Below the pieces are notes generated by a model, which was given only the letters and a program-made list of their open reading frames with translations, ran no database searches and was not told the DNA's origin. A DNA stretch of 64,000 nucleotides from Chitinophaga sp. MM2321 (lineage in GTDB: Bacteria > Bacteroidota > Bacteroidia > Chitinophagales > Chitinophagaceae), in NCBI RefSeq assembly GCF_964033635.1, contig NZ_OZ035533.1:1426001-1490000 (forward strand), written 5' to 3'. Shown piece by piece: positions 43,318 to 60,588 of the stretch (position 1 is the first letter of the stretch; each line of letters starts with the position of its first letter). A program made the translations under genes and the position numbers.

Positions 43318-44442
43318 CTACCTGATCGTAATCTTCCAGATACATTTATACCCGTAATCTGCCACATAGATCAATCCCCCGTTTACAGCGGCCACACCAC
43401 CTGCCTGGTTCATCTTAATGTTCCGGGCCAGTAGTTCATAGGTATCTGTAGTTAAACCCAACCATGGCATTACATAACTGCCGCTCACAGGGCCTGCATC
43501 CGGGCAACTGCAAAAGGTGGGTGTCAGGAAATGTCCTACACCAGCCAGTGTGATTACATTTCCATCTGCGCTTACCCTGCGTAACGCACCATTGGTGCCA
43601 TCTGCTACATAGTAATAAGGGAACTGGTAATGAATAGCTTTGGGGTAGGAAAACTGCGCGATCGCACCCAATCCGTCATGCAGCCCTTCAAAAGTAATAT
43701 GGCCTGCAAGCCTGGAAGCAGTGCCGGTTGATGTGATCTTTGTAATACCCTGAAAAAAACCTGAGCTGCCACCCACATACAAAAGATCGTTGGCTGCATT
43801 TACAGCAATGCCGGAAGGAGAAGCCGCCTCTGCTTGATTGGTGGGGCGGATTACACTGCCTGCAACAGTTGTTACCACACCTGCGGGTGTGATCTTCCTC
43901 AATTGTGAAGCAAAAGGCGCATCAGGTGAATTATCACCTACAATTACATTGCCTGCTGCATCTACTACTAACCCCTGGCCGGTTTCTGAAGAGCCGAAAT
44001 TACTCACCAGCTGCGCACCAAAACGGAAGGATGCTGCAGCGCCTGTACCGTCTGCATTACCGGCAGTACCGCTTCCGGCCAGTATTGTAATGGTAGCGGG
44101 GGCGCTGAAGTTGATAGCTTTCACCTGTTGACTGGTGGCATCTGCTACATATAGTAATCCCCTGACGGCATCAAGGCCCATACCCATTAAGCGGCCAAAT
44201 TCATTGGCGCCGCCGGCAAAGGTAGTTACTACACCATCCGGTGTTACTTTCAATACAACATCGTGTGTAGCCCGCTGATCGATTATATAAATATTTCCCG
44301 CTGCATCTGTTATCATCTCCGCAGGAAGTGTGAACAATGAAGATGAGGGACCGCCTGCCAGCACGGTGCCGGTTACGGTAGGTCTGTAAAGTATGCAGGC
44401 CCGGCATAATTCATAGTACCGGCCATTGAGGTACAGGTTCAT
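43318..44442 (-). CDS. NHL-repeat protein (likely C-terminal part of a split lipoprotein)
   Basis: 374 residues made mostly of NHL/beta-propeller repeats: AEMITDAAGNIYIIDQRATH, GVVTTFAGGANEF, GLVVDAAGNVIVGDNS, GIAVNAANDLLYVGG, ending GGLIYVADYGYKCIWKITIR. NHL propellers in exported Bacteroidota proteins bind proteins or glycans. It has no signal peptide of its own. Its first codons overlap the stop of the preceding lipoprotein gene (ATGA). Reading upstream in this frame gives PILYQIDTARLG without a stop, suggesting the two pieces were one protein of about 480 residues. Confidence 0.75.
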   Translation of the reverse strand: MNLYLNGRYYELCRACILYRPTVTGTVLAGGPSSSLFTLPAEMITDAAGNIYIIDQRATHDVVLKVTPDGVVTTFAGGANEFGRLMGMGLDAVRGLLYVADATSQQVKAINFSAPATITILAGSGTAGNADGTGAAASFRFGAQLVSNFGSSETGQGLVVDAAGNVIVGDNSPDAPFASQLRKITPAGVVTTVAGSVIRPTNQAEAASPSGIAVNAANDLLYVGGSSGFFQGITKITSTGTASRLAGHITFEGLHDGLGAIAQFSYPKAIHYQFPYYYVADGTNGALRRVSADGNVITLAGVGHFLTPTFCSCPDAGPVSGSYVMPWLGLTTDTYELLARNIKMNQAGGVAAVNGGLIYVADYGYKCIWKITIR

Positions 44443-44768
44443 CCCCAGACGCGCCGTATCAATCTGGTATAGTATGGGCAGAGGTCTAACAGTATATAGT
44501 CGTCCTGCGCATCTTTTATGGGAACTTCCTGTTTATCAAAATAAAATTTAGCTGCTTTTTTAAGCAGTCCTTGCTTGTTCCATGCTACAAATTCCGGTGA
44601 GGATAGTTTGATTGTGAGTCCCGAAAATACAGTTTCCAATGTATTACCTTTCATATCTGTGATCTTCAGATCAATGTTTTCCGGGGAATGATCAGACCAT
44701 GGGAATGGAAGTTTTTTACAGGCCAGTAATAGCGTTACCAATGCCATGTACAGAAATAGCTTTCTCAT
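44439..44768 (-). CDS. Lipoprotein N-terminal module upstream of the NHL protein
   Basis: 109 residues. Lipobox signal MALVTLLLACKKLPFPW, then an Ig/TIG-like strand pattern (ITDMKGNTLETVFSGLTIKL, KFYFDKQEVPIKDAQDDYIL). The expected domain end is replaced by a frame-shifted tail (PYYTRLIRRVWG). Related exported proteins combine such a module with the NHL propeller in one chain, so a single-base indel near 44460-44490 is likely. Coupled translation of two chains through the ATGA overlap is the alternative. Confidence 0.65.
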   Translation of the reverse strand: MRKLFLYMALVTLLLACKKLPFPWSDHSPENIDLKITDMKGNTLETVFSGLTIKLSSPEFVAWNKQGLLKKAAKFYFDKQEVPIKDAQDDYILLDLCPYYTRLIRRVWG

Positions 44769-45306: not shown

Positions 45307-45654
45307 ATGAACCTATCCAGAACCCAAATAGCGGCATTCTGCCTGGTTAAAGCCTATCTTGAATGCAATGCAGGGCATGGCCTGACCATAGAACAATTAA
45401 TGAGGACTTCAGGGCTAAGTGAAACGTCACTTCGGCTTGGTTTCAAATTTTGCTTCCAGATTACCATATATGAATACCACCGCGATATTTCTATGGAGTA
45501 CGCCAAAGCTTTATTGGAGGATGGCATGATGGTCAAGCTGGTGGCGCGCAAATTGGGCTACCGGAATGCAACGAATTTCACCAGGGCATTTCAATACGTA
45601 TTTAGTAAGCCACCGGGTTTGATTTCGCTGAAGAAGAAACGCAGTGAAAAATAA
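45307..45654 (+). CDS. Stand-alone AraC-type DNA-binding domain
   Basis: 115 residues, only the double HTH of AraC proteins: HGLTIEQLMRTSGLSETSLR (first HTH), then AKALLEDGMMVKLVARKLGY, RNATNFTRAFQYVFSKPPG (second HTH and signature). The sensor domain is absent. It may be a natural short regulator or a truncated one; it lies 570 bp before the peptide cluster and could act there. Confidence 0.75.
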   Translation: MNLSRTQIAAFCLVKAYLECNAGHGLTIEQLMRTSGLSETSLRLGFKFCFQITIYEYHRDISMEYAKALLEDGMMVKLVARKLGYRNATNFTRAFQYVFSKPPGLISLKKKRSEK

Positions 45655-46225: not shown

Positions 46226-46477
46226 ATGAAAAAGCTAATTTTTAACGCAGCTGGTGTGATGTGTATCGTTATAATCTCCATGGCTTTTACTAGCCCCTAT
46301 GATCTAATTTATTGCTTCAGCCCTGATGGAGCAGTTCCAAGCCCTGCCGGAATGGTTTGTAACATACCAATATCGGATTTAAAAATAACAATTTACAATA
46401 CAGGTGACCTTCGATATTGCAATGCAGTGCAGAACCTTACCTGTAGAAAATTGAATTTTGTGGCGCCTACTAATTGA
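46226..46477 (+). CDS. Small secreted four-cysteine peptide 1
   Basis: 83 residues. Hydrophobic export segment (MKKLIFNAAGVMCIVIISMA), then a mature part with Cys30, Cys45, Cys65 and Cys73 (C-x14-C-x19-C-x7-C). Landmarks: LIYCFSPDGAVPSPAGMVC, RYCNAVQNLTC. The same cysteine spacing and many identical residues occur in the 83-residue peptide at 49243; a more distant relative is at 48847. It resembles the small DUF6520-type secreted proteins of Bacteroidota. It is followed by MauE and redoxin genes, so disulfide bond formation is the likely link. Function unknown. Confidence 0.75.
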   Translation: MKKLIFNAAGVMCIVIISMAFTSPYDLIYCFSPDGAVPSPAGMVCNIPISDLKITIYNTGDLRYCNAVQNLTCRKLNFVAPTN

Positions 46478-46539
46478 ATTTTAATATCTGTTCCAAACTT
46501 AATTTTTGAACAATACTTCTTGTAATTAATGTTTATAAT

Positions 46540-46995
46540 ATGAACAAAATTAGGCAGTGGATTCTTGGGGAAGGTATCCCTTTGCTCTACATATGTTTGT
46601 TACTTTATACGGCAATTTCAAAACTGATGCAATATGATTTGACAAGAGAGCAAATGGCTGTGATGCCAGTAATCAGTCCATTTTCTGGTATAGTTACATG
46701 GCTTTTGCCTGTTTCTGAAATTATTATTGCACTTGTCGTTTTTGTTCCGAGAACTAGAAGGATAGGTCTATATTTAAGTACCGGATTAATGATAGGGTTT
46801 ACTATGTATGTTGCATACATGATGAAATTTTTTAGCCATTTGCCTTGTACATGTGGTGGCTTCCTACAGAATCTCACTTGGCCACAACACCTTTTATTCA
46901 ATCTCTTTTTTGTTCTCATCGGGGTTATAGCAATATTAGCAAGCAGATTCCCTATTAAAGAAATTAATCAAGGGAGATTAAAATATAGCCGTTAA
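46540..46995 (+). CDS. MauE/DoxX-type redox-associated membrane protein
   Basis: 151 residues with four membrane helices (GIPLLYICLLLYTAISKLMQ, VTWLLPVSEIIIALVVFVP, IGLYLSTGLMIGFTMYVAYM, LFNLFFVLIGVIAILAS). A cysteine pair sits in an extracytoplasmic loop (HLPCTCGGFLQ). MauE proteins work with thioredoxin-like partners in disulfide formation in exported proteins (known for methylamine dehydrogenase). It sits between peptide 1 (62-bp gap) and the redoxin gene (12-bp gap). Confidence 0.82.
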   Translation: MNKIRQWILGEGIPLLYICLLLYTAISKLMQYDLTREQMAVMPVISPFSGIVTWLLPVSEIIIALVVFVPRTRRIGLYLSTGLMIGFTMYVAYMMKFFSHLPCTCGGFLQNLTWPQHLLFNLFFVLIGVIAILASRFPIKEINQGRLKYSR

Positions 46996-47422
46996 TAACT
47001 ACAAACTATGAACCGTTTTGTTTTTGCCTTAATATTTTTCGGGGTCGGAATTGGTAGTTGTACAAAGCCAGATGTAAAGCCTGTAATTACTGGTAAGGAA
47101 GGCGAGAATCTGCCGATCTTTAATATTTTATTGAGCGATAGCACTAGTTTTTTTAATACTGCTGAATTTGATGCGGGAAAGCCCATTGTCCTATTCTATT
47201 TTTCTCCTGGATGTCCATATTGCAGAATGGAAACAAGGAGAATCGTAAATAATATTAGCAAATTTAAAGATGTGCAATTTTGTTTAGTTACAAACGGGGA
47301 TTTTGAAGAATTAAGAGGCTTTTGTAAACTTTTTGATCTAGATAAACATAAGAATATTATAATGGTCCCCGAAAAAAGGTCCGGTATTTAAGATATAAAA
47401 AATCATCTTAAATTGCCAAGTA

Positions 47423-47710
47423 ATGACAAAAAAGAGCAGACGTAAATTTACCGGGGACTTCAAAGCAAAAGTAGTATTAGAAGCCCTCAAGGAGCGCAGC
47501 ACAATTGAGGAGCTGGCGAAGAAGTATGAATTACACCCAACACAAATAAACACGTGGAAGCGGGAGGCGGCCGCGAAATTGGCTGGAGCATTTGACTCTG
47601 ATACTCCCACAAGCACTAGTGAAGACCAGGAGGCCCAAATGGAGAAACTATATGCCCAAATTGGTCAGTTAAAGGTGGAGAATGATTTTTTGAAAAAAAA
47701 GTTGCGTTGA
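47423..47710 (+). CDS. IS3 transposase OrfA
   Basis: 95 residues. HTH RKFTGDFKAKVVLEALKERS, TIEELAKKYELHPTQINTWK, then a leucine-zipper helix (MEKLYAQIGQLKVENDFLKK). The run of eight A residues at 47693-47700 followed by G (A AAA AAG) is a standard -1 slippage site just before the stop, allowing an OrfAB fusion. Confidence 0.93.
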   Translation: MTKKSRRKFTGDFKAKVVLEALKERSTIEELAKKYELHPTQINTWKREAAAKLAGAFDSDTPTSTSEDQEAQMEKLYAQIGQLKVENDFLKKKLR

Positions 47711-48549
47711 AGTCATTAGTCTCCCGTAGGGGAATGATTGAATCTTCAAATCCATTGATAAGTGTTCGGCAACAATGTAGGTTATTAAGCCTGCATCGCA
47801 GTGGATTGTACTACCAACCGCTTGCCGAAACGGAGGAGAATATGACCATTATGCGCTTGCTTGATGAGCAGTACTATAAGACCCCGTTTTTCGGGGAACG
47901 GAAGTTAAAGATCTGGTTGCGTGGCCTGGGATATTTCGTCAACCGCAAGCGGCTTCGCCGCCTAATGCAGCTAATGGGCTGGGAGACACTATATAAAAGA
48001 CCAGGTACGAGTGATCCGAATACATCGCATAAGGTATACCCCTATCTACTTAAAGGGTTAGCGATTACGAGGGCCAATCAGGTATGGGCAACAGACATTA
48101 CTTATGTGCCTATGCGTAAAGGCTTCATGTACCTTTGTGCGGTAATTGATTTGCATACCCGGTACGTAGTAAATTGGAGTGTCAGTAATACGATGACCGC
48201 AGACTGGTGTAAAAGCGTAGTTGAAGAAGCAATAACGACAAGTGGTAAACCTGAAATATTCAATACTGATCAAGGGAGCCAATTCACCAGCGAGATATTT
48301 ACCGGCATGCTGAAAAATCATGAAATACAGATCAGTATGGATGGGAAGGGCAGAGCGATTGATAATATTTTCATTGAGCGGTTATGGAAAAGTGTTAAAT
48401 ATGAAAATATTTATTTGAACGTATACGAAGACGGAGTAAGTTTGTATCAAGGATTGCAACAGTACTTTGAGTTTTATAATACGGCGCGCTTCCATCAATC
48501 ACTGGGATACAAAACGCCAGCGGATCTTTATAAAACGATTGCTGCCTAG
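47707..48549 (+). CDS. IS3 transposase OrfB (DDE integrase)
   Basis: 280 residues counted from a TTG; expression is expected mainly by -1 frameshifting from orfA. HTH_21 region (MRLLDEQYYKTPFFGERKLK) and rve integrase core with the DDE triad: Asp in VWATDITYVPM, Asp in FNTDQGSQFTS, Glu in NIFIERLWKSVKYE. C-terminal FYNTARFHQSLGYKTPADLY is typical of the IS150/IS3 groups. Reading frame intact, so the element may still be mobile. Confidence 0.95.
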   Translation: MKSLVSRRGMIESSNPLISVRQQCRLLSLHRSGLYYQPLAETEENMTIMRLLDEQYYKTPFFGERKLKIWLRGLGYFVNRKRLRRLMQLMGWETLYKRPGTSDPNTSHKVYPYLLKGLAITRANQVWATDITYVPMRKGFMYLCAVIDLHTRYVVNWSVSNTMTADWCKSVVEEAITTSGKPEIFNTDQGSQFTSEIFTGMLKNHEIQISMDGKGRAIDNIFIERLWKSVKYENIYLNVYEDGVSLYQGLQQYFEFYNTARFHQSLGYKTPADLYKTIAA

Positions 48550-48564
48550 CCCCTGGTGGGGCTG

Positions 48565-48608
48565 GTGCTTACAAAACAGATGCGCAAGCGCATCTATTTT
48601 GTAAGCAC
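48565..48608. repeat. Long hairpin inside the IS right end
   Basis: GTGCTTACAAAA pairs with TTTTGTAAGCAC, and AGATGCGC with GCGCATCT inside, a nearly continuous 21-bp stem with loop AA. It probably terminates transposase transcription or shields against read-through from outside. Confidence 0.7.
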
Positions 48609-48846
48609 TTGATAAAGCTTAGATCGACAAATTATCGGTCCTGACATTGGGGACCATTATATATAATAGTTGGTATCGATACTGGGTACATTACCACCAA
48701 ATATTTCAGGCCTCCTAGTGTTCCATTTTTAGGTATCTATCTAAGAGACAAAAAATTGAATAGTGCATACTTAGGTGCAATTAGCTTAAATCAACTAGAA
48801 GCCTCGATTAAATTGTAAAAATGGTTTGTTCCTTAAAGGATCTTAG

Positions 48847-49077
48847 ATGAAAAAAAATAAGGTATATCTGAGCCCATTTATAATTACAATACTTGTGATT
48901 TCTTGTTTGGCATTCAATCTAAAAAGTGCCACGATTTACTGCCATGGAAATGGAACTACTGCCGGTTTATGTGATAGCGTAATTTATAACTACAGATATT
49001 CAGCAAAGGTTGATTCACTTAGATTCTGCGATATATTATCTAATGGCAATTGTTTTATAGCCAAAACATTTAAATAA
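48847..49077 (+). CDS. Small secreted four-cysteine peptide 2
   Basis: 76 residues. Hydrophobic N-terminus (FIITILVISCLAF) then SATIYCHGNGTTAGLCDSVI and LRFCDILSNGNCFIAK. Cysteines at 32, 42, 61 and 69: C-x9-C-x18-C-x7-C, keeping the IYC start and the exact C-x7-C ending of peptides 1 and 3, but shorter between the first two. It begins 28 bp after the redoxin stop codon, so it belonged to the same transcript before the IS insertion. Confidence 0.68.
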   Translation: MKKNKVYLSPFIITILVISCLAFNLKSATIYCHGNGTTAGLCDSVIYNYRYSAKVDSLRFCDILSNGNCFIAKTFK

Positions 49078-49242
49078 ACGTATGCTGATAAAGGCCTTAT
49101 TAATTTCGTAATAAAGTATCTTGTTATTTTTTTTCCTTGATGTATTATATATAATTAAATAAATTTCTCCGGGGAACAGGGAAAAGCCGAAAACCCTAAT
49201 AAAATAGTAGGCAATAATCTTTCTTTATAAAATCTATTTAAT

Positions 49243-49494
49243 ATGAAAAAGTTAGTATTTAGCGCCATTGGCGTATTTGGTTTTGTTGCCGTTTCTTTAG
49301 CATTTGCAAGCAGGGGTTCTACTATCTATTGTTTCAATGATGATGGATCAATACCAAGCCCATCCGGCCAGGTTTGTACTGTTCCTATCAATGATTTGGC
49401 TGTCTCAACCCAAACTACAAGCTTACAAAAGTATTGTAATGCAACATCCGGCTTAGCATGTACAACTTTGCGTTATATTGTTGACAAACAATAA
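49243..49494 (+). CDS. Small secreted four-cysteine peptide 3
   Basis: 83 residues. Signal-like MKKLVFSAIGVFGFVAVSLA, mature part with Cys30, 45, 65 and 73, identical spacing to peptide 1. Shared blocks include IYCF--DG--PSP-G-VC--PI-DL and YCNA---L-C. The PSP turn and conserved cysteines imply a folded, disulfide-bonded product rather than a random exported tail. Followed by a strong terminator. Confidence 0.75.
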   Translation: MKKLVFSAIGVFGFVAVSLAFASRGSTIYCFNDDGSIPSPSGQVCTVPINDLAVSTQTTSLQKYCNATSGLACTTLRYIVDKQ

Positions 49495-49578: not shown

Positions 49579-52152
49579 TTAATTACCACCTACTCCTAAC
49601 ATCCATTTGGGACAATCTTTGCCCAATAAAAAATAATCAAAAAATTGATCCATTCTTTTGGTATAGTCTATTCTGGCTCTATCCTTCATTATTACATGAG
49701 GTTCATTATTATATTGCAGTAGCCACACCTCCTTTTTTAACCTTCTTAAGGCTAAAAAAAAGCTAACGCTTTGATCTACTTTAACAATTTCATCTTTTTT
49801 CCCATGAACAAGAAGTAGTGGAGTAGTTACATTCTCTGCCTCCAGAACTGGTGAACTTTCAGTATAAAGATTTTTTGCCTCCCACATGTTTTTTATTAAA
49901 TTTCCCTGGCCTCTTTCATAAAAATATTGAAATCCCCTTCCTTTGTAGGTTTGCAAGTAATTTGAAACTATATTAGAAACCCCATCGCTTGAGATAGCTG
50001 CTGCAAATATTTTAGAATGACTGACAACATAATTTATCATATATGCAGCATAACTATGACCTTGAATGCCAATCTTAGAGGAATCGACCCAGCTTTTTTT
50101 TGATATGAATTGTGCGGCGGCAATGATCTGCTTATACCCGCTTTTGGCGGGATCACCTTCGGAATATTTTACATCTGGTGTAAAAACGATATAGCCTCGA
50201 CTTACATACCATGGTATATTTAGGTTGTCACCAGTGGCGATAGGCTTTTGATAAACATTAAGTTGATTCGATTTTTGTTCGTAAAAATGGATAATAACCG
50301 GATACTTTTTGGTTGAATCAAAATTTTGCGGTTTGTAAATTATTCCCTGATAAGTATCATTTAAGGATGTATAATAATTAACTAGTTCACTGGTTAACCA
50401 GTTATAGTTTAACTCAGGATATATACTCGAAATTTCTTTGTAATTTTTAAAATCTGTAGTGTAATACAAGTTAGGACTTTTCATTGCCGTTTCTCTTCTC
50501 ACTACCCAAAGGTTACTTTTATCTGCTTTTATAGGTGTAAAACTGGTGTAGTCTGTATTATTGTCGTCATAGGTAAAGACATCTTCTAAAGCCAGTGATT
50601 TAATTTTAGGTGGTGCTTTTGGATTCAACATAAAAATACAATTCCTTTTAGTTTTTTCTTCAAAAGCACTCCCTAGAATAGACTCATCATTGATAATTAT
50701 TGAATTGGAATGAATATTAATGATGCTAAATTGGATCTTGTTATTTCTACCTTGTTTTCCAGTCAAACAATAAGGGACTTTATCTCCGTTAAGTTTTACC
50801 TCCCATATATCATATTTGTCATGAATTAGTATTGATTTTTTATTTGGCAACCAGGCACTAAACCACACAATCGTAGTTGGTAAATTGTTGTTTTCCTTGT
50901 ATATATCTGGAACCTTATCCAAAAGATTTCTTGTAATTCCATTTAATAGGTTTAGTGAGAGCAATTTATTCTGTAATGAGTCAGTTCCCAAGAAGTAATT
51001 CCCATCTGGAGATATACCCCATATATATTCAATTTCTGTTGGTATTCTATCGCCAGTTCTACAGTTGATGATAAAATTTTGACTAACAACTTTATTGTTC
51101 CAAAATAATTCCCTTTGATCACCTTTACTTAATGTCAATAAGGCATAGTCATAAATGGATTTATCGAACAATGTAAGTTTCTCATTGTCTCCCTGCAAGA
51201 TTACTAATTTTGAACTTTTTATTTCTAAAGATGCAATATAGCTTTTAGGAAATTTTACTCTTCCAGATGGGTTTGACAAATCGATATCCGAATACCTCCA
51301 TATATCAACCAATGGAGATTCTGCTTCATTTTCATTTATTCTGCCTGCCAGCTTAATAAATAATAGGTCCGTAGAATTATTGTATTTCAAAATCCCATTT
51401 ATTGAGTCATTTGATAGTAAATTGATACATTTCGAAGTGTTTTTTTTATAGTTCCAAATTGTTTTTATCCCATCTTCCGTTATAAATGCAATCTGATTTC
51501 CTTTAGGGTCTATTGTTATATCGGAAACCTTGACCCCTTCCCAAAATTTTGATTCTTTTTTATTATTTAAATTCAGCCAAGACAATGATTCTTTTCCAAG
51601 CATATTCCTTTTCAATATAATGGTAGCGTTATTTTCACTATAGGATATTGCTTCAATATTTGGATATACCCATGTTTTAAAGGATTCAAAATCTAATAAA
51701 AAAAAATTCTTACTGATCCCTGCTTGTTGATACGCTAAATATTCATGGTCATGGTCTTTTAGGACTTCGCAACTAGTTACGTTTGTAATGATACTATGTT
51801 CTTTTCCACCTAGTTTAAGGATTATGATACTATCTCCTGTATTGTATATTGTGATGAACTTGCTGGATAATGTAAATTGGAAAAGCTTTATATTTTGAAA
51901 CCTTTTTTCCCATGATCCATCTATGGACTTGATAATGTAGCTTAATTGCCCTAGACTTTTGTGACTTTCCGTATAAGCTATAAATTTTCCATCTCCGCTT
52001 ACCTGTGTAATTCCTATTAGTGTAGGCCAGCTTTCAAATACTGTAGAGTCAAGCTTGGGCTTTTGACCATATGTGTTTGTACTTAAAAGTATACTTATCG
52101 CAAGTATGATCGTTTGGAGTATATGTGCTAGCGATTTTTCTGAACAGGCCAT
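49579..52152 (-). CDS. S9-family prolyl-oligopeptidase-like peptidase, exported
   Basis: 857 residues. Signal-like helix (HILQTIILAISILLSTNTYG), a long beta-propeller N-terminal domain, and an alpha/beta-hydrolase C-terminal domain. The catalytic triad is visible: Ser in GIQGHSYAAYMINYVVSH, Asp in LLVHGKKDEIVKVD, His in NEPHVIM. S9 peptidases cut short peptides, often after proline or alanine. The gene overlaps the thioredoxin-like gene by 25 bp and shares its orientation with the SusCD genes, suggesting peptide uptake and processing. Noticeably AT-rich. Confidence 0.88.
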   Translation of the reverse strand: MACSEKSLAHILQTIILAISILLSTNTYGQKPKLDSTVFESWPTLIGITQVSGDGKFIAYTESHKSLGQLSYIIKSIDGSWEKRFQNIKLFQFTLSSKFITIYNTGDSIIILKLGGKEHSIITNVTSCEVLKDHDHEYLAYQQAGISKNFFLLDFESFKTWVYPNIEAISYSENNATIILKRNMLGKESLSWLNLNNKKESKFWEGVKVSDITIDPKGNQIAFITEDGIKTIWNYKKNTSKCINLLSNDSINGILKYNNSTDLLFIKLAGRINENEAESPLVDIWRYSDIDLSNPSGRVKFPKSYIASLEIKSSKLVILQGDNEKLTLFDKSIYDYALLTLSKGDQRELFWNNKVVSQNFIINCRTGDRIPTEIEYIWGISPDGNYFLGTDSLQNKLLSLNLLNGITRNLLDKVPDIYKENNNLPTTIVWFSAWLPNKKSILIHDKYDIWEVKLNGDKVPYCLTGKQGRNNKIQFSIINIHSNSIIINDESILGSAFEEKTKRNCIFMLNPKAPPKIKSLALEDVFTYDDNNTDYTSFTPIKADKSNLWVVRRETAMKSPNLYYTTDFKNYKEISSIYPELNYNWLTSELVNYYTSLNDTYQGIIYKPQNFDSTKKYPVIIHFYEQKSNQLNVYQKPIATGDNLNIPWYVSRGYIVFTPDVKYSEGDPAKSGYKQIIAAAQFISKKSWVDSSKIGIQGHSYAAYMINYVVSHSKIFAAAISSDGVSNIVSNYLQTYKGRGFQYFYERGQGNLIKNMWEAKNLYTESSPVLEAENVTTPLLLVHGKKDEIVKVDQSVSFFLALRRLKKEVWLLQYNNEPHVIMKDRARIDYTKRMDQFFDYFLLGKDCPKWMLGVGGN

Positions 52153-53471
52153 GTGGGTTGATTTAATTTCATTTTTTTGAGGTTTAGTAAATAATCATCT
52201 ATCAATGGGCCCTTTCCATTTTTAGTGCTTCTTTTACCAAGTTCATTTGAGATTTCTATAACTTTTTTTTCCAGTTGGATAGCTTCCCTTTCTCTTCCTA
52301 ATTTATATAAGAGATTAGATTTAGTATCATAGAATTGCATTTTAATTTCAATATTTAGCTCTTGATTGAGAGAATGTTCGCTCCACTTTAGTGCTGCCTT
52401 TAATGCACTTCTATCGGTAGAATATAAAAAGATATCCCAGGCAGGTGCATTGTAGCGAAGAAAAATTTCCATTGGTTCAGATCTGGGCGGATCAATCGAA
52501 TTCAACCGGTTTCTAAATTTAATATATTTGCTCCAGTTTTCAATTTTTCTGTAATAGTTAATCTTAGCTTTCAAAACCATTAAATCTGCATCAATACCGG
52601 AATACTTTTTACTAATTGTAGATTCCATTAATTTCCAATTTGGCTTCGTGTTCTTTTCTTTTAAACCGTCCCACAAATTGGGCTGGATTTCTTCTCTATT
52701 GATTACGATTTCTCTTATGTCATTAGCCCATCCTTTTTGTCCAATAATAGAATCGAGTTTTTTAGGGATTTTTGCTGCTAAACCGAAAATTCTATCTTCA
52801 CTTGAAATGGAGGATGAATTTGATCCATAAAAAACTAGATTATTTTTTTTAGTTAATTCGAATTCATTTTTTTTGTCTAAATATTCGCCACAAGAAAATA
52901 CAATTGAGTCTACCAGCGTTTTGTTTTTATTTTGTTTAGCCATATTTAAGAGAAGGAACATGCTTTCTAAGTCTCTTTTGCCATTTTTATAATCAGCTAA
53001 TAGGGTTAAGTACTGCTTCTTTGGATCTAATACTTGTTTTCCCAATTCAAGAAATTCACTTGTTTTTTTAAATCCAAAATCTCTTTGTAATAGTTCTCCA
53101 TCTGTAGAGAAAAATAGGAAAGTAGGAAGTACAGATACGTTGTATTTTTTAGTTAGATTCTCTGCGTCCTTCCTAAATGTTTTAGTCGATTCATCATCAG
53201 CATTTGTTGTATCTTGTTGAACTTTAATCGATATGAATTTATCATTAAAATAATCACCTAATATTGGCTGTGAATAAACCTCACGATCCATTTCTTTGCA
53301 TGGACCACACCACGTAGCATAAATATCTAAGAATATAAACTTTTTTTCAATTTTAGCTTTTTCTAAAATTTGATTCCAACTTAGACCCCTTGAAAAGGAT
53401 ATTCCCGAACTTTGCGCATTTAATGTAAAATGCAATGATAAAAGTATTATAGTTAAGTTAATTTTCTTCAT
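52128..53471 (-). CDS. Exported thioredoxin-fold protein with helical C-terminal domain
   Basis: 447 residues. Signal peptide (INLTIILLSLHFTLNAQS), a thioredoxin domain in the first 150 residues with active site IYATWCGPCKEMDREVYSQP and the cis-proline strand YNVSVLPTFLFFSTDGELLQ, then about 300 residues of helical TPR-like repeat (SNLLYKLGREREAIQLEKKV). Such proteins are common beside SusCD and peptidase genes and may keep imported or surface proteins reduced. It is coupled to the S9 gene by overlap. Confidence 0.85.
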   Translation of the reverse strand: MKKINLTIILLSLHFTLNAQSSGISFSRGLSWNQILEKAKIEKKFIFLDIYATWCGPCKEMDREVYSQPILGDYFNDKFISIKVQQDTTNADDESTKTFRKDAENLTKKYNVSVLPTFLFFSTDGELLQRDFGFKKTSEFLELGKQVLDPKKQYLTLLADYKNGKRDLESMFLLLNMAKQNKNKTLVDSIVFSCGEYLDKKNEFELTKKNNLVFYGSNSSSISSEDRIFGLAAKIPKKLDSIIGQKGWANDIREIVINREEIQPNLWDGLKEKNTKPNWKLMESTISKKYSGIDADLMVLKAKINYYRKIENWSKYIKFRNRLNSIDPPRSEPMEIFLRYNAPAWDIFLYSTDRSALKAALKWSEHSLNQELNIEIKMQFYDTKSNLLYKLGREREAIQLEKKVIEISNELGKRSTKNGKGPLIDDYLLNLKKMKLNQPTWPVQKNR

Positions 53472-53643: not shown

Positions 53644-55086
53644 CTATTCATATCCTGGATTCTGTTTTAGATTGGGGTCAAGACTTATTTCCTGGGCAGG
53701 AATTGGATATAGAGCCCATTTGCTATCCCAAGTCCCCCCTTTTTCCAAAGTAACTTTGCTCATTACTTCATTTATTTGACCTGTTCTTTTTAGATCCAAC
53801 CATCTATGACCCCATTCTGTAAATAGTTCAACCTGCCTCTCGTGAGCGATAGCTACAAGTATTTGTTGTTGTAATTTTGCGGTGGTTGGTTGCAAACCGG
53901 CACGTCTTCTGATGACATTAAGATCTGATTTTGCTTGATCCAGTTTATTTTGTTTGGCTTTTGCTTCTGCCCTTATAAGATATTGCTCGCCAGTACGTAA
54001 TATCATTAGATATTCTGATGTCGGTGTATTTACTTTACCTATTTTATATTTGTATGGATATGTATAAACTTTATCTGACACCGTAATTTGTTTGGTCCAA
54101 TTTGATTTTCGTAAATCTTCATTCTCAAACGCATCCAAAAGATTTTGATTTATGAACATAGGCAATGAAGAAGAGGGGCCGGTCTGTGGTAGAATAAATA
54201 GCCGTCCTTCTCCAGTGTTTTGACTTGTAGTACCATTAACTGAAGGCAGCTGCCAGATTGCTTCCTTGCTGTTCTTTAGAAATACATTATTTAGCGATAC
54301 AGTATCATACATATATTTATTTTCTATTATATCATTGGCCTTAAGTTCAGCATTTGGATAATCTTCAGTATATAAGTAGATTCTAGCTAATAATGCTTTT
54401 GCAGCTGCTTTATTGGGCCGTATTCTTTCATATGAAATGGCATTACCATGTGCGTCTAAATAGTTAGAGTTCAGTAGGTTTTCTGCACTCAATAAATCCT
54501 TTATGAGTTGCTGATAGATTTCTGCCATCGAAGTCCGTTTTAATGAAGCAGTAATTTCATATTTATTTTCTACTGTGAATGGAACATCTCCATATAAGTT
54601 TATTAGATAGAAATAACAAAATGAGCGAACGAACAATGCTTCCCCTAATAACTGCTGTTTTATGGAGGGTGTTAATTTAGTTGTCGTTGATAATCCGTTT
54701 ATTGCAAAATTGCTTAAGAAAATTGTGTAATACAGTTTATTCCAATAATGATTTGAACCTAATGTGATTGCCCTCAAGTCATTTTTGTAATAGCCCAAAA
54801 GTGTTGTGTTGGTAACCCCTGGCCATAGGCTCAATTCATCAGATGATAGCCCGGGTAGGATAGATATCGCAGCAACACTAGTATTTGTTACTGTAGAAAA
54901 GTTATCTCCATAACTCAGGTCTGTATATATACCATTAAGTAGGGCAGCGGCAGTATTATCATCGTTAAATGCATTTTCATCACTAATACTGTTAATAGGC
55001 GTATCGACTGATACAAATTTTTTGCAGCCAGTAAATAGGATTGCTGACAACAATATGAATAATATATGATTGTTAATTATTTTCAT
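53644..55086 (-). CDS. SusD/RagB nutrient-binding lipoprotein
   Basis: 480 residues. Lipoprotein signal ILFILLSAILFTGCKKFVSV; SusD helices (LGEALFVRSFCYFYLINLYG, DVPFTVENKY) and C-terminal HERQVELFTEWGHRWLDLKR. Smaller than typical glycan-binding SusDs (500-550), closer to the group found with peptidases. It follows susC after 27 bp. Confidence 0.93.
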   Translation of the reverse strand: MKIINNHILFILLSAILFTGCKKFVSVDTPINSISDENAFNDDNTAAALLNGIYTDLSYGDNFSTVTNTSVAAISILPGLSSDELSLWPGVTNTTLLGYYKNDLRAITLGSNHYWNKLYYTIFLSNFAINGLSTTTKLTPSIKQQLLGEALFVRSFCYFYLINLYGDVPFTVENKYEITASLKRTSMAEIYQQLIKDLLSAENLLNSNYLDAHGNAISYERIRPNKAAAKALLARIYLYTEDYPNAELKANDIIENKYMYDTVSLNNVFLKNSKEAIWQLPSVNGTTSQNTGEGRLFILPQTGPSSSLPMFINQNLLDAFENEDLRKSNWTKQITVSDKVYTYPYKYKIGKVNTPTSEYLMILRTGEQYLIRAEAKAKQNKLDQAKSDLNVIRRRAGLQPTTAKLQQQILVAIAHERQVELFTEWGHRWLDLKRTGQINEVMSKVTLEKGGTWDSKWALYPIPAQEISLDPNLKQNPGYE

Positions 55087-55113: not shown

Positions 55114-58100
55114 TTATAATATTAATTGAATCCCCATAGTGTATACTTTAAGTGGGGGTAAATTTGCTATTGATCGACTTTCTGGATCTAACCCGTTATA
55201 GTTTGTGATTGTTATTAAATTTTGTCCTTGAAGGAAAATTCTACTATTTCTTAGTACTGACTTTATTTTCATTTGTTTCAATAATTGCCAGGAAATAGAT
55301 ACATTTTTTAGTCTGATATAGCTTGCATTAGAAAAGGATAAGCTACTTGACTGGGCATATAGATCTGAAACTGGTTGGGTCGTAGTATATTTCTGGATTA
55401 CCGTATTAACTTTTGAAACTTGCCATCTATCTAATACATATGTTGGTTGATTTCCGTAGGTTGTCGTAGGATCTGAATAGAATGCCCCCGGATAATTCCC
55501 TGTTAGATAATTTTGGCCATCCTGTTTAACGAACTGAAACAAAAAATCTATTGATATATTGTTGAACTGAAATTCATTTTGTACACCTCCATAGAGTGTA
55601 GGATTAGGATTATAGAAGTATATTCTATCAGTGATGTATGAAGGTGAAGTGGTAACTGTTCCTTTTGAGTCGTAAAATTGATAAAGTCCTGTTTCCTGGT
55701 CTACACCAGCGAATTTAAACGCTGGGACAGTACCAATAGGTTCTCCGACAATTAATGTATTTGAATAAACAGATGTTTCTAGGTTTTTAAATTCAATTAG
55801 TTTGTTTTTTGGAATAGTAACATTGAATGAAGAAGTCCACTTAAATTTGTTTGTAGCTAGATTAGTTGAATTAATACTGATTTCCCAACCATTATTCTCT
55901 ATGGTCGCTGGAAAATTTCTTAGTACATAAGGATAACCTGTAGTCATCGGCAGTTGATAACTCAATAGTTGGTTTGATGATCTATTTCTTAAGTACGTAA
56001 GTCCGACTATTAAATGGTCATTATTAAAGCCAATATCTATTCCTAGTTGAATTTTTTTGGTAAGTTCCCAAGCAAGAGATGGATTTGGGTGACCATTGGG
56101 GATTAATGCCCGCTGACCAAAATAAGGCATACTAATTCCAATTGGTGAATTAAGCAAACTCATATATTGGTAGTCCCCTATCTGATCGTTTCCTGTTGTA
56201 CCAATACTCGCTCTTAGTTTTCCATAACTTATAAAAGATAACATCTCCTTTATGAAATTTTCATTACTAAAAAGCCAGGCAACTCCAATAGAACCAAAGT
56301 TGTGAAATTTGTTATTCGATCCGAAACGACTGGTGCCATCTCTTCTGCCACTAAGATTAATGATATATTTTTCATCATAGTTATAGTTTATTCTTCCGAA
56401 TATTCCTATATATTTATAAATGGAATTAATCGTTGAATTGGTATTTAAAGATGATGCAGACCGAATATCTTCCAAAACCAAGTCGCTTATATAGCCAGAA
56501 CCCTGGAGCAATAAATTGTCAGTCATGTCTTTACGTAATGTTCCACCAACTAGTAGATCTATTTTAGACTTTTTGAGCTCCTTATTATATGTGATTTGAG
56601 GCTCAAATATCCAAGAAGACATATTGCCATAACCATAATTCGCATATCGTTGGGATATAGATTGAAGTTCTGGGGCATTAATCGTTAGGGGATAGGTAAC
56701 AACCTCTTTATTATTTGCAAAATTATAACCAAAACTTCCTTTGATCTCTAAACCTTCAAGTACTTTATAACTCATTAACAGATTCCCTGTTAGATTATTA
56801 GTTTTATTTTTGTACCTACTTTGTATCATTGATAGTGGATTTGCCCAAGTGGAGACGCTATCTGTTCCTGAAGCGATTCGCTGCCAGTTTAAGCTACCAT
56901 CTTCATTAAAAATCTTTGGTGCAATTGGTGGAATGATAATGGCAGTTCTTGTCTGGTCTATAGCTGGTAATCGGTTGTCATCATTTAAATAGTTTATTGA
57001 AAATTGAGTCCTGAACCTTTGATCATTAGTGGTATGGTTCAAATTGAATCCAATAGCGGCTTTTGAATCATTTAAATCATTTTGAAATACTGTAGTTTGT
57101 CTATTATAGGTTCCACTTATTCTAAAAGTAGTTTGTTCGTTTCCTCCTGAAATGGCCAACTGATAATTAGAATATTTTGCAGTTCCTCCAATAAGTTCCT
57201 TTTGCCAATTGGTATTTCTTGTCGTATCCCAAACTGTTAGGTCATAGTTTGAAGGGTCAGGGATAGTTTCTGATGTAGGAATAGGTAAATCATCATTTTT
57301 ATATGCCTCTTTCCGCATTTCCAAATATTGCTGCCTATTCATTAAATTTAACTTACTTGCGACTTTACCATATCCCTGCTGAGTTGTAAAGTCGAAAATT
57401 GTCTTACCAGGTTTTCCTCGTTTGGTAGTAATCAGAATAGCACCATTTGCTGCACGGGAGCCATAAATGGCTGTCGCGTCTGCGTCTTTTAAGACATCAA
57501 TGCTTTCTATGTCACCAGGATTTAAATAGCTCAATGGATTGCCTGAAGGTATGTCCTGGCCCGGGGCTGCCACTCCCCCTGAATTCCCCAATTGCGAAGC
57601 AAGATTTGGGAGCCGTTGTGAATTATAAGGTACTCCATCAATTATATATAATGGATCATTCCCTTGGCCTATCGAGTTCAGGCCCTGAACCCGAACTGTT
57701 ATACCACCTCCTGGAAGTCCGGAGTTTTGATTAATAAATACTCCCGGTATCCTGCCTTGCATTGCGAGTAAAGGGTTCCCAACGGGTTGATCTTGGATTT
57801 CTTTTGAAGTTATAGTTCCAATGTTCCCAGTACTCAACCTGCGTGTGGTCGTGCCATAGCCAATAATTTGAACTTGATCTAACTGATTGTCTTTTTGAAT
57901 AAGTATAATGTTTAATTCATTTTGCTGGTTGATGTTTTTTTCAAGTGTTAGGTAGCCGATATAACTAAAAACAAGGGTCTCATCTGGCCCTGCGGTTATG
58001 GAATATTCACCATTCTGGTTGGTCGTTGTTCCAACTGTCCCATTTTTCACTCTGACATTCACCCCAATTAGGGGTTCGTTTTTTTCGTTTATAACTTTCC

Positions 58101-58557
58101 CTTTTATGATGATTTGTTTTTCCTCATCAAGTATTGATTCAGGAGTGAATTTGTCATCTTTTTTTTTATCAATCTTGGGTTGTATGATGATGACTTTATT
58201 TTCTATTGTGTAGCTAAATGGTTGCTCCGAAAAAATCTTCTCCAACACATCCTTTACACTCTCTTTTTGTAAGTCAATCGTTACTGGCTTAGCTTCTTTA
58301 AGATAGGAGCTTTTGAACAGAAACTGATACCCGGTTTGTTGCCTGATCGATTTCATCACATCACGTAAGGGTGCTTTTTCGAGCGAAAGAGTAATTTCCT
58401 GCGAATAGGCCGCAGCGGAAACCCTCAAAGAAATGGCCAGAAGTATCAGAAACATTTTCATGGCTATAATGAATTGAATTTGTCTTTGGGTGAGTACAGG
58501 CATTTTCCTGTTGAAAAAAGAAAATGCAGCTGCATCGGTATGAATAGTATTATTCAT
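55114..58557 (-). CDS. SusC/RagA TonB-linked transporter with STN domain
   Basis: 1147 residues. Signal (FIIAMKMFLILLAISLRVSA), STN domain (ITLSLEKAPLRDVMKSIRQQ to NKVIIIQP, about 55-125), carboxypeptidase-D-like domain (IKGKVINEKNEPLIGVNVRV, about 150-230), TonB-box region (LDQVQIIGYGT), plug (GITVRVQGLNSIGQGNDPLY, IDVLKDADATAIYGSRAANG) and barrel. Channel of the second SusCD importer; the STN domain links it to the FecR/sigma pair upstream. Confidence 0.95.
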   Translation of the reverse strand: MNNTIHTDAAAFSFFNRKMPVLTQRQIQFIIAMKMFLILLAISLRVSAAAYSQEITLSLEKAPLRDVMKSIRQQTGYQFLFKSSYLKEAKPVTIDLQKESVKDVLEKIFSEQPFSYTIENKVIIIQPKIDKKKDDKFTPESILDEEKQIIIKGKVINEKNEPLIGVNVRVKNGTVGTTTNQNGEYSITAGPDETLVFSYIGYLTLEKNINQQNELNIILIQKDNQLDQVQIIGYGTTTRRLSTGNIGTITSKEIQDQPVGNPLLAMQGRIPGVFINQNSGLPGGGITVRVQGLNSIGQGNDPLYIIDGVPYNSQRLPNLASQLGNSGGVAAPGQDIPSGNPLSYLNPGDIESIDVLKDADATAIYGSRAANGAILITTKRGKPGKTIFDFTTQQGYGKVASKLNLMNRQQYLEMRKEAYKNDDLPIPTSETIPDPSNYDLTVWDTTRNTNWQKELIGGTAKYSNYQLAISGGNEQTTFRISGTYNRQTTVFQNDLNDSKAAIGFNLNHTTNDQRFRTQFSINYLNDDNRLPAIDQTRTAIIIPPIAPKIFNEDGSLNWQRIASGTDSVSTWANPLSMIQSRYKNKTNNLTGNLLMSYKVLEGLEIKGSFGYNFANNKEVVTYPLTINAPELQSISQRYANYGYGNMSSWIFEPQITYNKELKKSKIDLLVGGTLRKDMTDNLLLQGSGYISDLVLEDIRSASSLNTNSTINSIYKYIGIFGRINYNYDEKYIINLSGRRDGTSRFGSNNKFHNFGSIGVAWLFSNENFIKEMLSFISYGKLRASIGTTGNDQIGDYQYMSLLNSPIGISMPYFGQRALIPNGHPNPSLAWELTKKIQLGIDIGFNNDHLIVGLTYLRNRSSNQLLSYQLPMTTGYPYVLRNFPATIENNGWEISINSTNLATNKFKWTSSFNVTIPKNKLIEFKNLETSVYSNTLIVGEPIGTVPAFKFAGVDQETGLYQFYDSKGTVTTSPSYITDRIYFYNPNPTLYGGVQNEFQFNNISIDFLFQFVKQDGQNYLTGNYPGAFYSDPTTTYGNQPTYVLDRWQVSKVNTVIQKYTTTQPVSDLYAQSSSLSFSNASYIRLKNVSISWQLLKQMKIKSVLRNSRIFLQGQNLITITNYNGLDPESRSIANLPPLKVYTMGIQLIL

Positions 58558-58692: not shown

Positions 58693-59850
58693 TTAGTTGA
58701 TCATGATCCTCCTTCCTTCCATCTTTAATTTGATGTTGCTGCTGATTTCAATTGACCTCAAAACTTCGGATAGCGGAATCTTACGGGAGATTTCACCATC
58801 GAAACTTATTTGCGGCATATTGCTGTAATCAACCTCAACGTTGTACCATCGGCTAATTTCTCGTAACACTTGCTGCAATGGGGTTTGGACGAAAACGAAT
58901 AGCCCGTCCTTCCAGGCAATGATATCGTCTGGATTGACTTGCTTAACCAGGATTTCATGTGATGTAACTATCGCTTGTTTTCCGGGAGAGAGGTTTATGT
59001 GTGCCCCGGTTTTGGGTAGGGAAACCACGACGCTTCCTTCAGCGAGCGTAGTTTGCATGTTTTCAGATTTAGGATAGCAGCATACATTGAGATGTGTGCC
59101 GGTTACGGTTACCAATTGTTCATTACTCTGAATTGTGAAGGGTTTTGTAGGATTCTTCGTTACTTCGAAATAGGCTTCTCCAATCAGTTCTACCTTCCTT
59201 TCTTTTAGTTTGGTAAAACTTTGGGGGAAAGTGATTTTTGAATCGGCATTCAGCCAGACGTGTGTACCGTCTTCTAGTACAATTTCATATTGGCCTCCTT
59301 TAGGCGTACTGATCGTATTCAATTGTTCTCCAGTTGTCTCATCGGATTTGGTTATAGTAGATTTGGTTATGGTATAGGTAACCTTTCCATTTTTAGATTG
59401 TTGAATGCTGAGACCTGCTAATTTGGAGAGTTCACCCTGGTGGAGACTGTCCAAGGTGATTTGCTGTCCATTTGCAAGGGTGAGGATAGCTTTATTACTG
59501 GCAGGCCCTATATCGGTTGCAGCGAGTTGTGGTACGTCGGGTATAATTACCGGATTTAGAAACCACCAAATCGTGCCGGCTGCTAAAACAAATCCCAGCA
59601 CGGCAGCGGCTATCTTTAACGGGGTAAATGGAATGGTCCTTTTGTTTTTTCTATGAATAAGACGGGCATCATGATCTATAAGTGCATTCCAGATGCTTTC
59701 ATTAATCTGCTCAAAATCGGGCTGGCCTTCCGGCATGGACTCAGTCTTTGCCATCTCCAGGTACCAGCTCTCGACCAGTAGCTTCTCTTCCGGTGTGCAG
59801 GTTCCATTACGGTAACGTGCGATTAATGCTAGTGCTTCTTCTTTTTCCAT
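58693..59850 (-). CDS. FecR-family anti-sigma factor
   Basis: 385 residues. Membrane helix LKIAAAVLGFVLAAGTIWWF at about 78-97; FecR domain (ISTPKGGQYEIVLEDGTHVW, KVELIGEAYFEVTKN); C-terminal DUF4974 (DGLFVFVQTPLQQVLREISR, SLSLKMEGRR-type end). Longer and less similar than the FecR at 5899. It lies 153 bp after the sigma gene and 135 bp before susC. Confidence 0.92.
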   Translation of the reverse strand: MEKEEALALIARYRNGTCTPEEKLLVESWYLEMAKTESMPEGQPDFEQINESIWNALIDHDARLIHRKNKRTIPFTPLKIAAAVLGFVLAAGTIWWFLNPVIIPDVPQLAATDIGPASNKAILTLANGQQITLDSLHQGELSKLAGLSIQQSKNGKVTYTITKSTITKSDETTGEQLNTISTPKGGQYEIVLEDGTHVWLNADSKITFPQSFTKLKERKVELIGEAYFEVTKNPTKPFTIQSNEQLVTVTGTHLNVCCYPKSENMQTTLAEGSVVVSLPKTGAHINLSPGKQAIVTSHEILVKQVNPDDIIAWKDGLFVFVQTPLQQVLREISRWYNVEVDYSNMPQISFDGEISRKIPLSEVLRSIEISSNIKLKMEGRRIMIN

Positions 59851-60003: not shown

Positions 60004-60588
60004 TTATAGAAAAAATGAACCTGGGAGTAAAATGTTCAGTTTGTTACGGAGAATACGCAGGGCAGTATAGATATGTTTCTTGACGGTTCCTTCACTCGTA
60101 CCGGTTTTTATGGCAATTTCCTTATAACTGAGGTGTTCTTTTTTTGCAAGCTCAAATGCGGCTCGCATCTTTGGCGGCAGGAGGGAGATCTCCGCTTCAA
60201 TGCGTTCGTGCAGTTCCCTTTCTATATCTTCCCGGGTTTCGAAAATCTCTTCTTCGATGTTTGTAAAGTCATTCAGGCTATAGTGCTGGAGAAACCTGAC
60301 ATAGTTGTCCTTTACTTTTTCATGCGCCATGTCATTAATGATCCTGTTACGCATACAGCCATATAAAAAACCGGGAACGGATTTGACCTGATCAACCTGC
60401 CGGGATTTAGAGAGCAGCATCATAAACACATCCTGAACGGCATCGCTTGCCAGATCCTGATCTTTAAGCATCCTTCGGGCATGGTTAAACAACAGGCCCC
60501 AATACCTGTCGTATATTTCCTTAAAAGCGGTAGCATCCCCGTTGTTGTAAGCGGTAAGTAGTTCTTTATCCGTCAATACATGATACAT
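60004..60588 (-). CDS. ECF sigma-70 factor
   Basis: 194 residues. Region 2: NNGDATAFKEIYDRYWGLLF, LASDAVQDVFMMLLSKS. Region 4: LPPKMRAAFELAKKEHLSYK, EIAIKTGTSEGTVKKHIYTA. First gene of the second sigma / FecR / SusC / SusD / thioredoxin / S9 unit. It lacks the hydrophobic tail seen in the sigma factor at 5209 except for a short LLPGSFFL end. Confidence 0.93.
   Translation of the reverse strand: MYHVLTDKELLTAYNNGDATAFKEIYDRYWGLLFNHARRMLKDQDLASDAVQDVFMMLLSKSRQVDQVKSVPGFLYGCMRNRIINDMAHEKVKDNYVRFLQHYSLNDFTNIEEEIFETREDIERELHERIEAEISLLPPKMRAAFELAKKEHLSYKEIAIKTGTSEGTVKKHIYTALRILRNKLNILLPGSFFL

Follow-up and report, generated by a model that had tools for sequence, protein, structure and literature searches.

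What does a bacterium do with small exported peptides that carry four cysteines each and are encoded around a membrane protein of the MauE family? The question is raised by a 64-kb stretch of the genome of Chitinophaga sp. MM2321 (a single contig of 6.78 Mb), called the window in the following, in whose positions all coordinates are given unless a genome position or another locus is named. Three such peptide genes lie on its plus strand at 46226..46477, 48847..49077 and 49243..49494 (peptides 1, 2 and 3), with the MauE gene at 46540..46995 and the two parts of a redoxin gene between the first and the second. A minus-strand operon, running from an S9 peptidase to a FecI-type sigma factor and including a SusC/SusD pair, converges on these genes. 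In this study I propose, with a confidence a little short of even, that the two sides could be the arms of one disulfide-peptide module, the plus-strand arm making and oxidising peptides and the facing arm sensing or importing them. The earlier note on this DNA had seen in the plus-strand genes a dedicated disulfide machine for small secreted peptides, and had missed the convergent SusC/SusD operon.

The open reading frames (ORFs) of the three exported four-cysteine peptides, which the earlier note had named, are confirmed, and all three begin with a Sec-like leader, as judged visually and with a home-made rule, not with SignalP. The cysteines of peptides 1 and 3 are found at residues 30, 45, 65 and 73 in both, so that the spacing C-x14-C-x19-C-x7-C claimed for this pair is exact, and the two are 45% identical. 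Peptide 2 has its cysteines at 32, 42, 61 and 69 and keeps IYC and C-x7-C, as had also been noticed; peptides 1 and 2 carry an extra cysteine within the export segment. The MauE-type membrane protein that had been recognised by its PCTCGG motif scores 102.7 bits against PF07291 (cut-off 27, E 2.3e-29), and its closest named relative, from Chitinophaga sp. Ak27, is 55% identical. A search with the sequence of peptide 3, the only one of the three used as a query, through 60 genomes of the genus including the own genome returned itself and peptide 1 only, and recurrence was therefore tested via the architecture of the locus. An AlphaFold2 model of a window peptide built from nine sequences (mean pLDDT 50.7, pTM 0.21) is unusable for disulfide pairing, and sequence searches of the PDB with peptide, propeller and MauE profiles gave nothing useful.

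For this purpose 116 non-identical MauE loci were assembled from 37 loci on genome contigs, 80 stretches (3 from the own genome and 77 from the genus) and the window, identical MauE being dropped; the loci were taken, nearly by score, from among the matches listed, which biases the set towards high-scoring MauE, and some genomes contribute several loci. Loci and genomes are labelled below with L- and G-numbers. Candidate peptides were recognised by a home-made rule with a crude signal-peptide criterion, applied to precursors of 50-135 amino acids (aa). At least 1.5 kb of downstream sequence is available at 113 of the 116 loci, and a small exported ORF on the same strand is found there in 93 of them, with an even number of cysteines in 88, although a few of the candidates counted as even, such as L069's and L081's second, look like chance ORFs. 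The control regions yield far fewer even-cysteine candidates (1 of 113 on the opposite strand downstream, and 5 of 115 on each of the two strands upstream). More than one candidate peptide occurs in 30 of 98 loci, a few of them being chance ORFs. The 60 genomes of the genus have 4 to 16 MauE matches each. In the own genome five MauE matches exceed the Pfam cut-off, four of them short stand-alone frames of 150-173 aa and the fifth a frame of 398 aa, and exported cysteine peptides adjoin all four short genes.

The number of cysteines is telling in itself. Downstream candidates within 1.5 kb number 108 with even and 8 with odd counts, and widening the search gives 121 even ones among 137 cysteine-bearing candidates. 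By eye, most of the 16 with odd counts resemble chance ORFs, while those at L080, L105, L107 (at 33), L119, L126 and L142 look real. When the mature sequences are grouped by BLAST into 66 families, the modal count is even in 56. Since the counts are overwhelmingly even, also per family, there is strong evidence that the peptide cysteines would pair with one another. On the conservation of the cysteines, to which the earlier note had tied its proposal, the answer is divided: their number is mostly even and is kept within families, but their positions differ between families. The two cysteines of the CxCGG motif, on their part, are kept in 99% of the 116 MauE proteins.

A second line of evidence comes from DUF6520 (PF20130), a family of small exported peptides that was defined independently of MauE. 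Phylum-wide, 22 of 296 genomes matched it, 17 of them over the cut-off. Among the 21 places over the cut-off, 18 have MauE within the roughly 3.2 kb of sequence fetched, and one further place (L166) lies beside a fusion of MauE with a propeller protein (L207), which makes 19 of 21; L161 and L168 have none. Below the cut-off, MauE was nearby in 3 of 6 places. DUF6520 thus almost always accompanies MauE, and like the present peptides it stands beside that gene, and it makes up a part of this peptide class that already bears a name. The window peptides, however, do not match PF20130 at E values up to 10, and the best score among the scanned peptide relatives of the own genome is 19.1 bits, below the cut-off of 25.4. 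DUF6520 was not found by name in the literature from 2020 on, in a search that left out preprints and does not prove absence.

Across the phylum, in 69 further MauE loci from among the matches listed, 20 of 25 loci of the own class have a candidate with at least two cysteines after MauE, and four of the five misses have less than 400 bases of room. Outside the own class a candidate peptide appears in 3 of 44 loci, none of them clear. In one genome outside the class, G133, there are 13 MauE matches, and no peptide was found at its locus L191; at L249 an ORF of 59 aa with 8 cysteines begins 26 bases past MauE.

The redoxin fares differently. The earlier note had described it as a CPYC redoxin lipoprotein, and the ORF from 47008 indeed has a lipobox and the CPYC motif, but the gene is not intact. 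Its 5' part (47008..47357, plus strand) runs into an IS3-family element at 47358..48661, within which the ORF ends at 47391. Coding is broken after about residue 116, and a C-terminal remnant of 51 codons with its stop lies beyond the element at 48663..48818 (plus strand; the two flanks were translated separately). The interrupted protein scores 24.7 bits against the Pfam Redoxin model (PF08534, E 2.2e-5), just under the cut-off of 26.6, and an intact relative in the own genome scores 34.1. The element measures 1304 bp, with a 3-bp target duplication (TAT) and 32-bp inverted ends that are 75% complementary, and its overlapping orfA (47423-47710) and orfB (47707-48549), together with 253.2 bits against NF033516 (cut-off 160), these inverted repeats and the short target duplication, assign it to IS3. 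Its ends were set by comparison with a second copy at genome position 5116645, where the target duplication is AAC. The two copies are identical over all 1304 bp, which suggests that the insertion, splitting peptide 1, MauE and the redoxin from peptides 2 and 3, is a recent event and the element apparently one that moved lately. Another MauE locus of the genome (L002, also L077, at 4.405 Mb) encodes a redoxin of this type that is intact. Because its own redoxin is disrupted, the plus-strand arm of the window would have to work without one, borrow the intact protein from 4.405 Mb, or be impaired.

In the set as a whole a redoxin is mostly absent. It occurs in 16 of the 116 loci, with CPYC or CPHC in 10, another CxxC in 5 and no such motif in 1, while a protein of about 350 aa occurs instead in 52, MauE is fused to that protein in 3, neither is recognised in 45, and no locus has both. 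The supposed co-occurrence thus holds in that the peptides are mostly found with MauE, and does not extend to the redoxin. The interpretation in the earlier note is partly supported: a disulfide module centred on MauE stands, with the redoxin present in a minority of loci and the 350-aa protein elsewhere in its place. One member of the 350-aa family was scanned without a Pfam match and another without an NCBIfam match; a model of one member (pLDDT 82.7) resembles, by fold search, a membrane-anchored beta-propeller, the first match being a DUF4221 protein at modest TM-scores of 0.50 to 0.52. Examples are seen at L044, L054 and L121. The MauE-propeller fusions (L047, L065 and L125; E 4e-74 to 1e-88) are found in Flavobacteria, and a fused ORF occurs in 16 of the 69 phylum-wide loci; this fusion suggests that the propeller takes part in the MauE reaction. 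Several redoxin-type loci (11 of the 116) show a long protein just upstream of MauE, for example at L062 (6776-9976 of that locus) and L077 (7264-9945), and the one at L062 has an N-terminal half like an FAD amine oxidase (PRK07208-like). Four loci from four genomes of the genus (L095, L096, L097 and L101, extended as L269-L272) have MauE and a CPYC redoxin with no recognised peptide and no convergent SusC or SusD within 8.3 kb, two of them carrying a SusC on the same strand; these modules perhaps serve a different substrate.

Turning to the facing strand, the minus-strand operon of the window has, next to the peptides, an S9 prolyl-oligopeptidase-type peptidase with a Sec-like leader (49579..52152, PF00326 E 5e-31) and an exported thioredoxin-like protein (52128..53471, over the cut-offs of PF13899, PF13098 and PF03190) whose motif reads WCGPC. 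These are followed by a SusD lipoprotein (53644..55086, PF07980 E 4.5e-29), a SusC/RagA TonB-dependent transporter (55114..58557; TIGR04056 697.4 bits, cut-off 368.25) with an STN domain (PF07660, E 4.4e-9), a FecR anti-sigma factor (58693..59850, PF04773 and PF16344) and a FecI-type ECF sigma factor (60004..60588, PF04542 and PF08281). Of the 31 loci whose downstream sequence reaches 8.3 kb or more, 29 have a convergent SusC or SusD there, and upstream none of 29 loci has one on the opposite strand and 2 have one on the same strand. With a laxer limit of 4.5 kb the downstream figures are 75 of 109 opposite and 2 on the same strand, compared with 7 and 2 of 107 upstream. Out of 34 loci in which no convergent pair was seen at first, 31 were extended, 7 turned positive, and some showed a SusC on the same strand instead. 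After extension, 75 of 88 peptide loci have convergent SusC/SusD genes; where MauE stands with no recognised peptide the figure is 9 of 22 (Fisher P 6e-5), with 6 loci left unjudged. FecR is convergent downstream in 22 of the 31 long loci.

In the own genome a SusD gene is encoded on the opposite strand 1.9 to 6.7 kb downstream at all four short-MauE loci, when the chance of a nearby SusD is estimated at about 7% per locus (132 SusD matches in 6.78 Mb). I then compared linked and unlinked SusD proteins in a tree of 61 rows, built by a quick method with weak deep branching, which took in 39 of 74 linked proteins (the four of the own genome and every second other) and 22 unlinked ones (20 of the own genome picked by hand, mostly short, and two in the window). 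The linked proteins form two clades, of 24 and 15, with an SH-aLRT of 100 each and no unlinked member, so that the SusD at 53644 belongs to a clade that in this sample holds proteins from MauE loci alone; it clusters with those of L077 and Ak27. As a gene linkage the connection between SusC/SusD and the peptides is strong, as one of function weak.

How might the two arms work? On the plus strand, small precursors would exit via Sec, after which the membrane protein MauE, through its CxCGG motif, would form the peptide disulfides, aided by the CPYC redoxin or, elsewhere, by the membrane-anchored beta-propeller. The handling of the peptides by MauE is well supported, and that MauE oxidises them is very probable. 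On the minus strand, SusD and SusC would bind the folded peptide, for sensing or for uptake, and a signal would pass to the cell at loci that, like the window, have an STN domain, FecR and FecI; SusC STN domains are described as signalling to anti-sigma factors in the relevant section of PMC7782687. That this arm acts on the same peptides seems to me evenly balanced. Uptake of a folded peptide may be possible in principle, because at the median mature length of 64 residues its volume, estimated from the usual volume per dalton at about 8,400 cubic angstrom, is smaller than the SusC/SusD cavity of about 10,000 cubic angstrom given in the same section. In the window the disulfides would next be opened by the thioredoxin-like protein and the chain cleaved by the S9 peptidase. 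Clustering recognises a gene for a thioredoxin-like, S9 or M16 protein in 36 of 74 SusC/SusD loci; since about half of these loci are without a recognised gene of either kind, I consider reduction and cutting rather doubtful. The two thioredoxin-like proteins examined resemble ResA, with scores below its cut-off, and a reducing role is plausible for some of these proteins, that of the window included.

Which cysteines might pair with which is suggested by the alignments. In a hand-picked set of 11 redoxin-type peptides the second and fourth cysteines are invariant, and the first and third are lost together in the three that lack either, so pairing of C1 with C3 and of C2 with C4 may be inferred. 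This pairing depends on the alignment, as in another set of nine, all with four cysteines, MAFFT aligns C1 and C3 but not C2 and C4.

The peptides are also highly variable. A hypervariable mature part, which falls into the 66 families, follows a more conserved leader, and among 132 pairs of loci whose MauE proteins are 50-80% identical the median identities are 62% for MauE, 60% for the leader, 50% for SusD and 34% for the mature peptide. At L056 and L060, for instance, MauE is 76% and the leader 86% alike, SusD 43% and the mature peptide 23%. Over 2211 pairs from 67 loci, which are not independent of one another, the mature peptide and SusD show a partial correlation, with MauE controlled for, of 0.41 (leader 0.27), a value reached by none of 500 label permutations, which ignore relatedness; when near-copies are removed it falls to 0.20 (leader 0.09). 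The partial correlation of the mature peptide with MauE given SusD is 0.65.

The falling correlation is one of several points that weigh against the two-armed module. Thirteen of the 88 peptide loci have no convergent SusC/SusD, although seven of these form one close group (L078, L079, L081, L084 and L087-L089) and L054 has the pair upstream on the same strand, and conversely 9 of the 22 MauE loci at which no peptide was recognised do have the pair. No thioredoxin-like or S9/M16 gene is recognised at 38 of the 74 SusC/SusD loci, and where convergent thioredoxin-like proteins occur their CxxC motifs are mixed (WCGPC or WCVPC, WC-x-PC, FCQPC and GC-x-x-C). A convergent downstream FecR is missing from 9 of the 31 long loci, in some of which the sequence stretch ends too early, and L047, L052, L059 and L065 include the start of SusC and have no STN match. 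The redoxin of the window itself is broken, and the peptide has no known exporter across the outer membrane, though no search for one was made.

Some of these points are accommodated by a first alternative, in which MauE serves a disulfide machine for secreted peptides and nothing more, the SusC/SusD operon being a neighbour of separate function. The linkage of MauE to the peptides is the strongest signal in the data, and the 13 peptide loci without the convergent pair and the 9 peptide-less loci with it would be expected. However, a mere neighbour should hardly face the peptides in 29 of 31 loci with full room and almost never lie upstream, or encode SusD proteins in clades that are exclusively linked in the sampled tree, or recur at all four loci of the own genome, and I therefore regard this explanation as rather unlikely.

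The hypervariable mature part behind its conserved leader, the many MauE matches per genome and the loci with several candidate peptides would suit a bacteriocin directed against relatives, for which the linked SusC/SusD would be the entry route in the targets or, with the reductase and peptidase, a sink for self-protection. The mature peptides are not cationic, however (median net charge 0, pI 6.2, n = 121), and no constant immunity gene was recognised among those neighbour clusters, not all of them, that were identified. The closest architectural analogue, the isopeptidase-type lasso peptides, is described in the pertinent part of PMC9266682 as lacking antimicrobial activity, astexin-1 excepted. 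A killing role thus appears quite unlikely.

The lasso clusters bear closer comparison. In those of astexin, sphingopyxin and benenodin, as the relevant sections of PMC9266682 and PMC11006600 describe them, a TonB-dependent transporter, a sigma/anti-sigma pair and an isopeptidase of the prolyl-oligopeptidase family stand beside a locked peptide, and the window likewise has a TonB-dependent receptor (SusC with STN), a FecR/FecI pair and an S9 enzyme beside self-made peptides. Here, however, the lock would be disulfides and not an isopeptide bond, the precursors leave by Sec, with MauE and a redoxin or propeller as the maker, opening would fall to a thioredoxin-like protein with S9 or M16, recognised in part of the loci only, and the receptor is SusC/SusD. 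With 57.1 bits against the lasso isopeptidase model NF033523 (cut-off 400), the S9 protein of the window is a distant relative only of these isopeptidases, which makes the lasso cluster a likeness and not a membership.

Siderophore-like roles have been proposed for the same lasso clusters in these sections, which fits a further explanation, that the peptide is a carrier of metal or other cargo, exported, loaded, recaptured by SusC/SusD, then reduced and cut to free its cargo. TonB-type uptake with FecR/FecI would agree with this, as would reductive release, but the cysteines appear to be paired, leaving few free ligands, and no metal-related family is found among the identified neighbour clusters, a search for metal sites across families not having been made; I hold a carrier to be improbable. 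No greater chance can be given to the peptide being a subunit or accessory of SusC/SusD, with any thioredoxin and peptidase serving another imported substrate. The peptide and SusD co-vary as a subunit would, and yet 30 of 98 loci encode more than one, divergent, candidate, and 13 of the 88 peptide loci are without a convergent pair.

MauE and MauD of methylamine utilisation serve a disulfide-rich small subunit, and the window shares with that system a MauE by profile membership and a redoxin that resembles MauD (TIGR02661 E 2.8e-5, 23.7 bits, cut-off 188.6), though here hypervariable peptides are the candidate substrates. A quinoprotein dehydrogenase of the methylamine dehydrogenase type, for which the MauE, this redoxin, a small cysteine protein and, elsewhere, a propeller could be enlisted, can be set aside as most improbable, since tryptophan is absent from all three window peptides and from the mature part of 60 of 121 sampled peptides, which leaves no tryptophan-derived cofactor, and the peptides are hypervariable in sequence (a genome search with PF02975, MauA, found no match, but a control search likewise gave none anywhere).

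For the two-armed module, this leaves the question of its purpose. The SusC/SusD pairs RagAB and Bt2261-64 have oligopeptide ligands according to work cited in PMC7782687, and the pair of the window belongs to the same RagA/SusC family; unlike there, the candidate ligand is encoded by a neighbouring gene. An outcome in sensing or re-uptake of a peptide of the cell itself or its kin, rather than in killing or metal uptake, is put forward here tentatively. More speculative again is a peptide-signalling system for pheromones or kin recognition, in which each locus would oxidise its own hypervariable peptide by MauE, a matching SusC/SusD, often with FecR/FecI, would sense and import it, and reduction and proteolysis would clear it where the genes exist, with many copies, each with a different peptide, working side by side within one Chitinophaga genome.

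Upstream of the cassette lies an AraC-type regulator that consists of the helix-turn-helix part only (45307..45654, plus strand, PF12833 E 2.5e-13), and among 109 MauE loci with 4.5 kb or more of room, 34 have a related regulator on the same strand upstream. The one of the window and that of a second MauE locus of the same genome (L003, 713-1057) are near-identical by eye, unlike their peptides. Farther upstream on the minus strand, at 43318-44768, a repeat-rich ORF of 374 aa and a lipoprotein-like ORF of 109 aa abut and overlap, each in its own frame, and could be a single gene with a frameshift.

SusC/SusD pairs are usually read as nutrient importers. If the two-armed module is real, a subset of them would have a self-encoded ligand in the neighbouring genes, and the loci would offer testable pairs of receptor and ligand. 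It would also add a class of disulfide peptides in bacteria of soil and water, give a function to DUF6520 and to part of the MauE family, and extend the logic of the lasso isopeptidases, to make, recapture and open a peptide, to peptides that are locked by disulfides.

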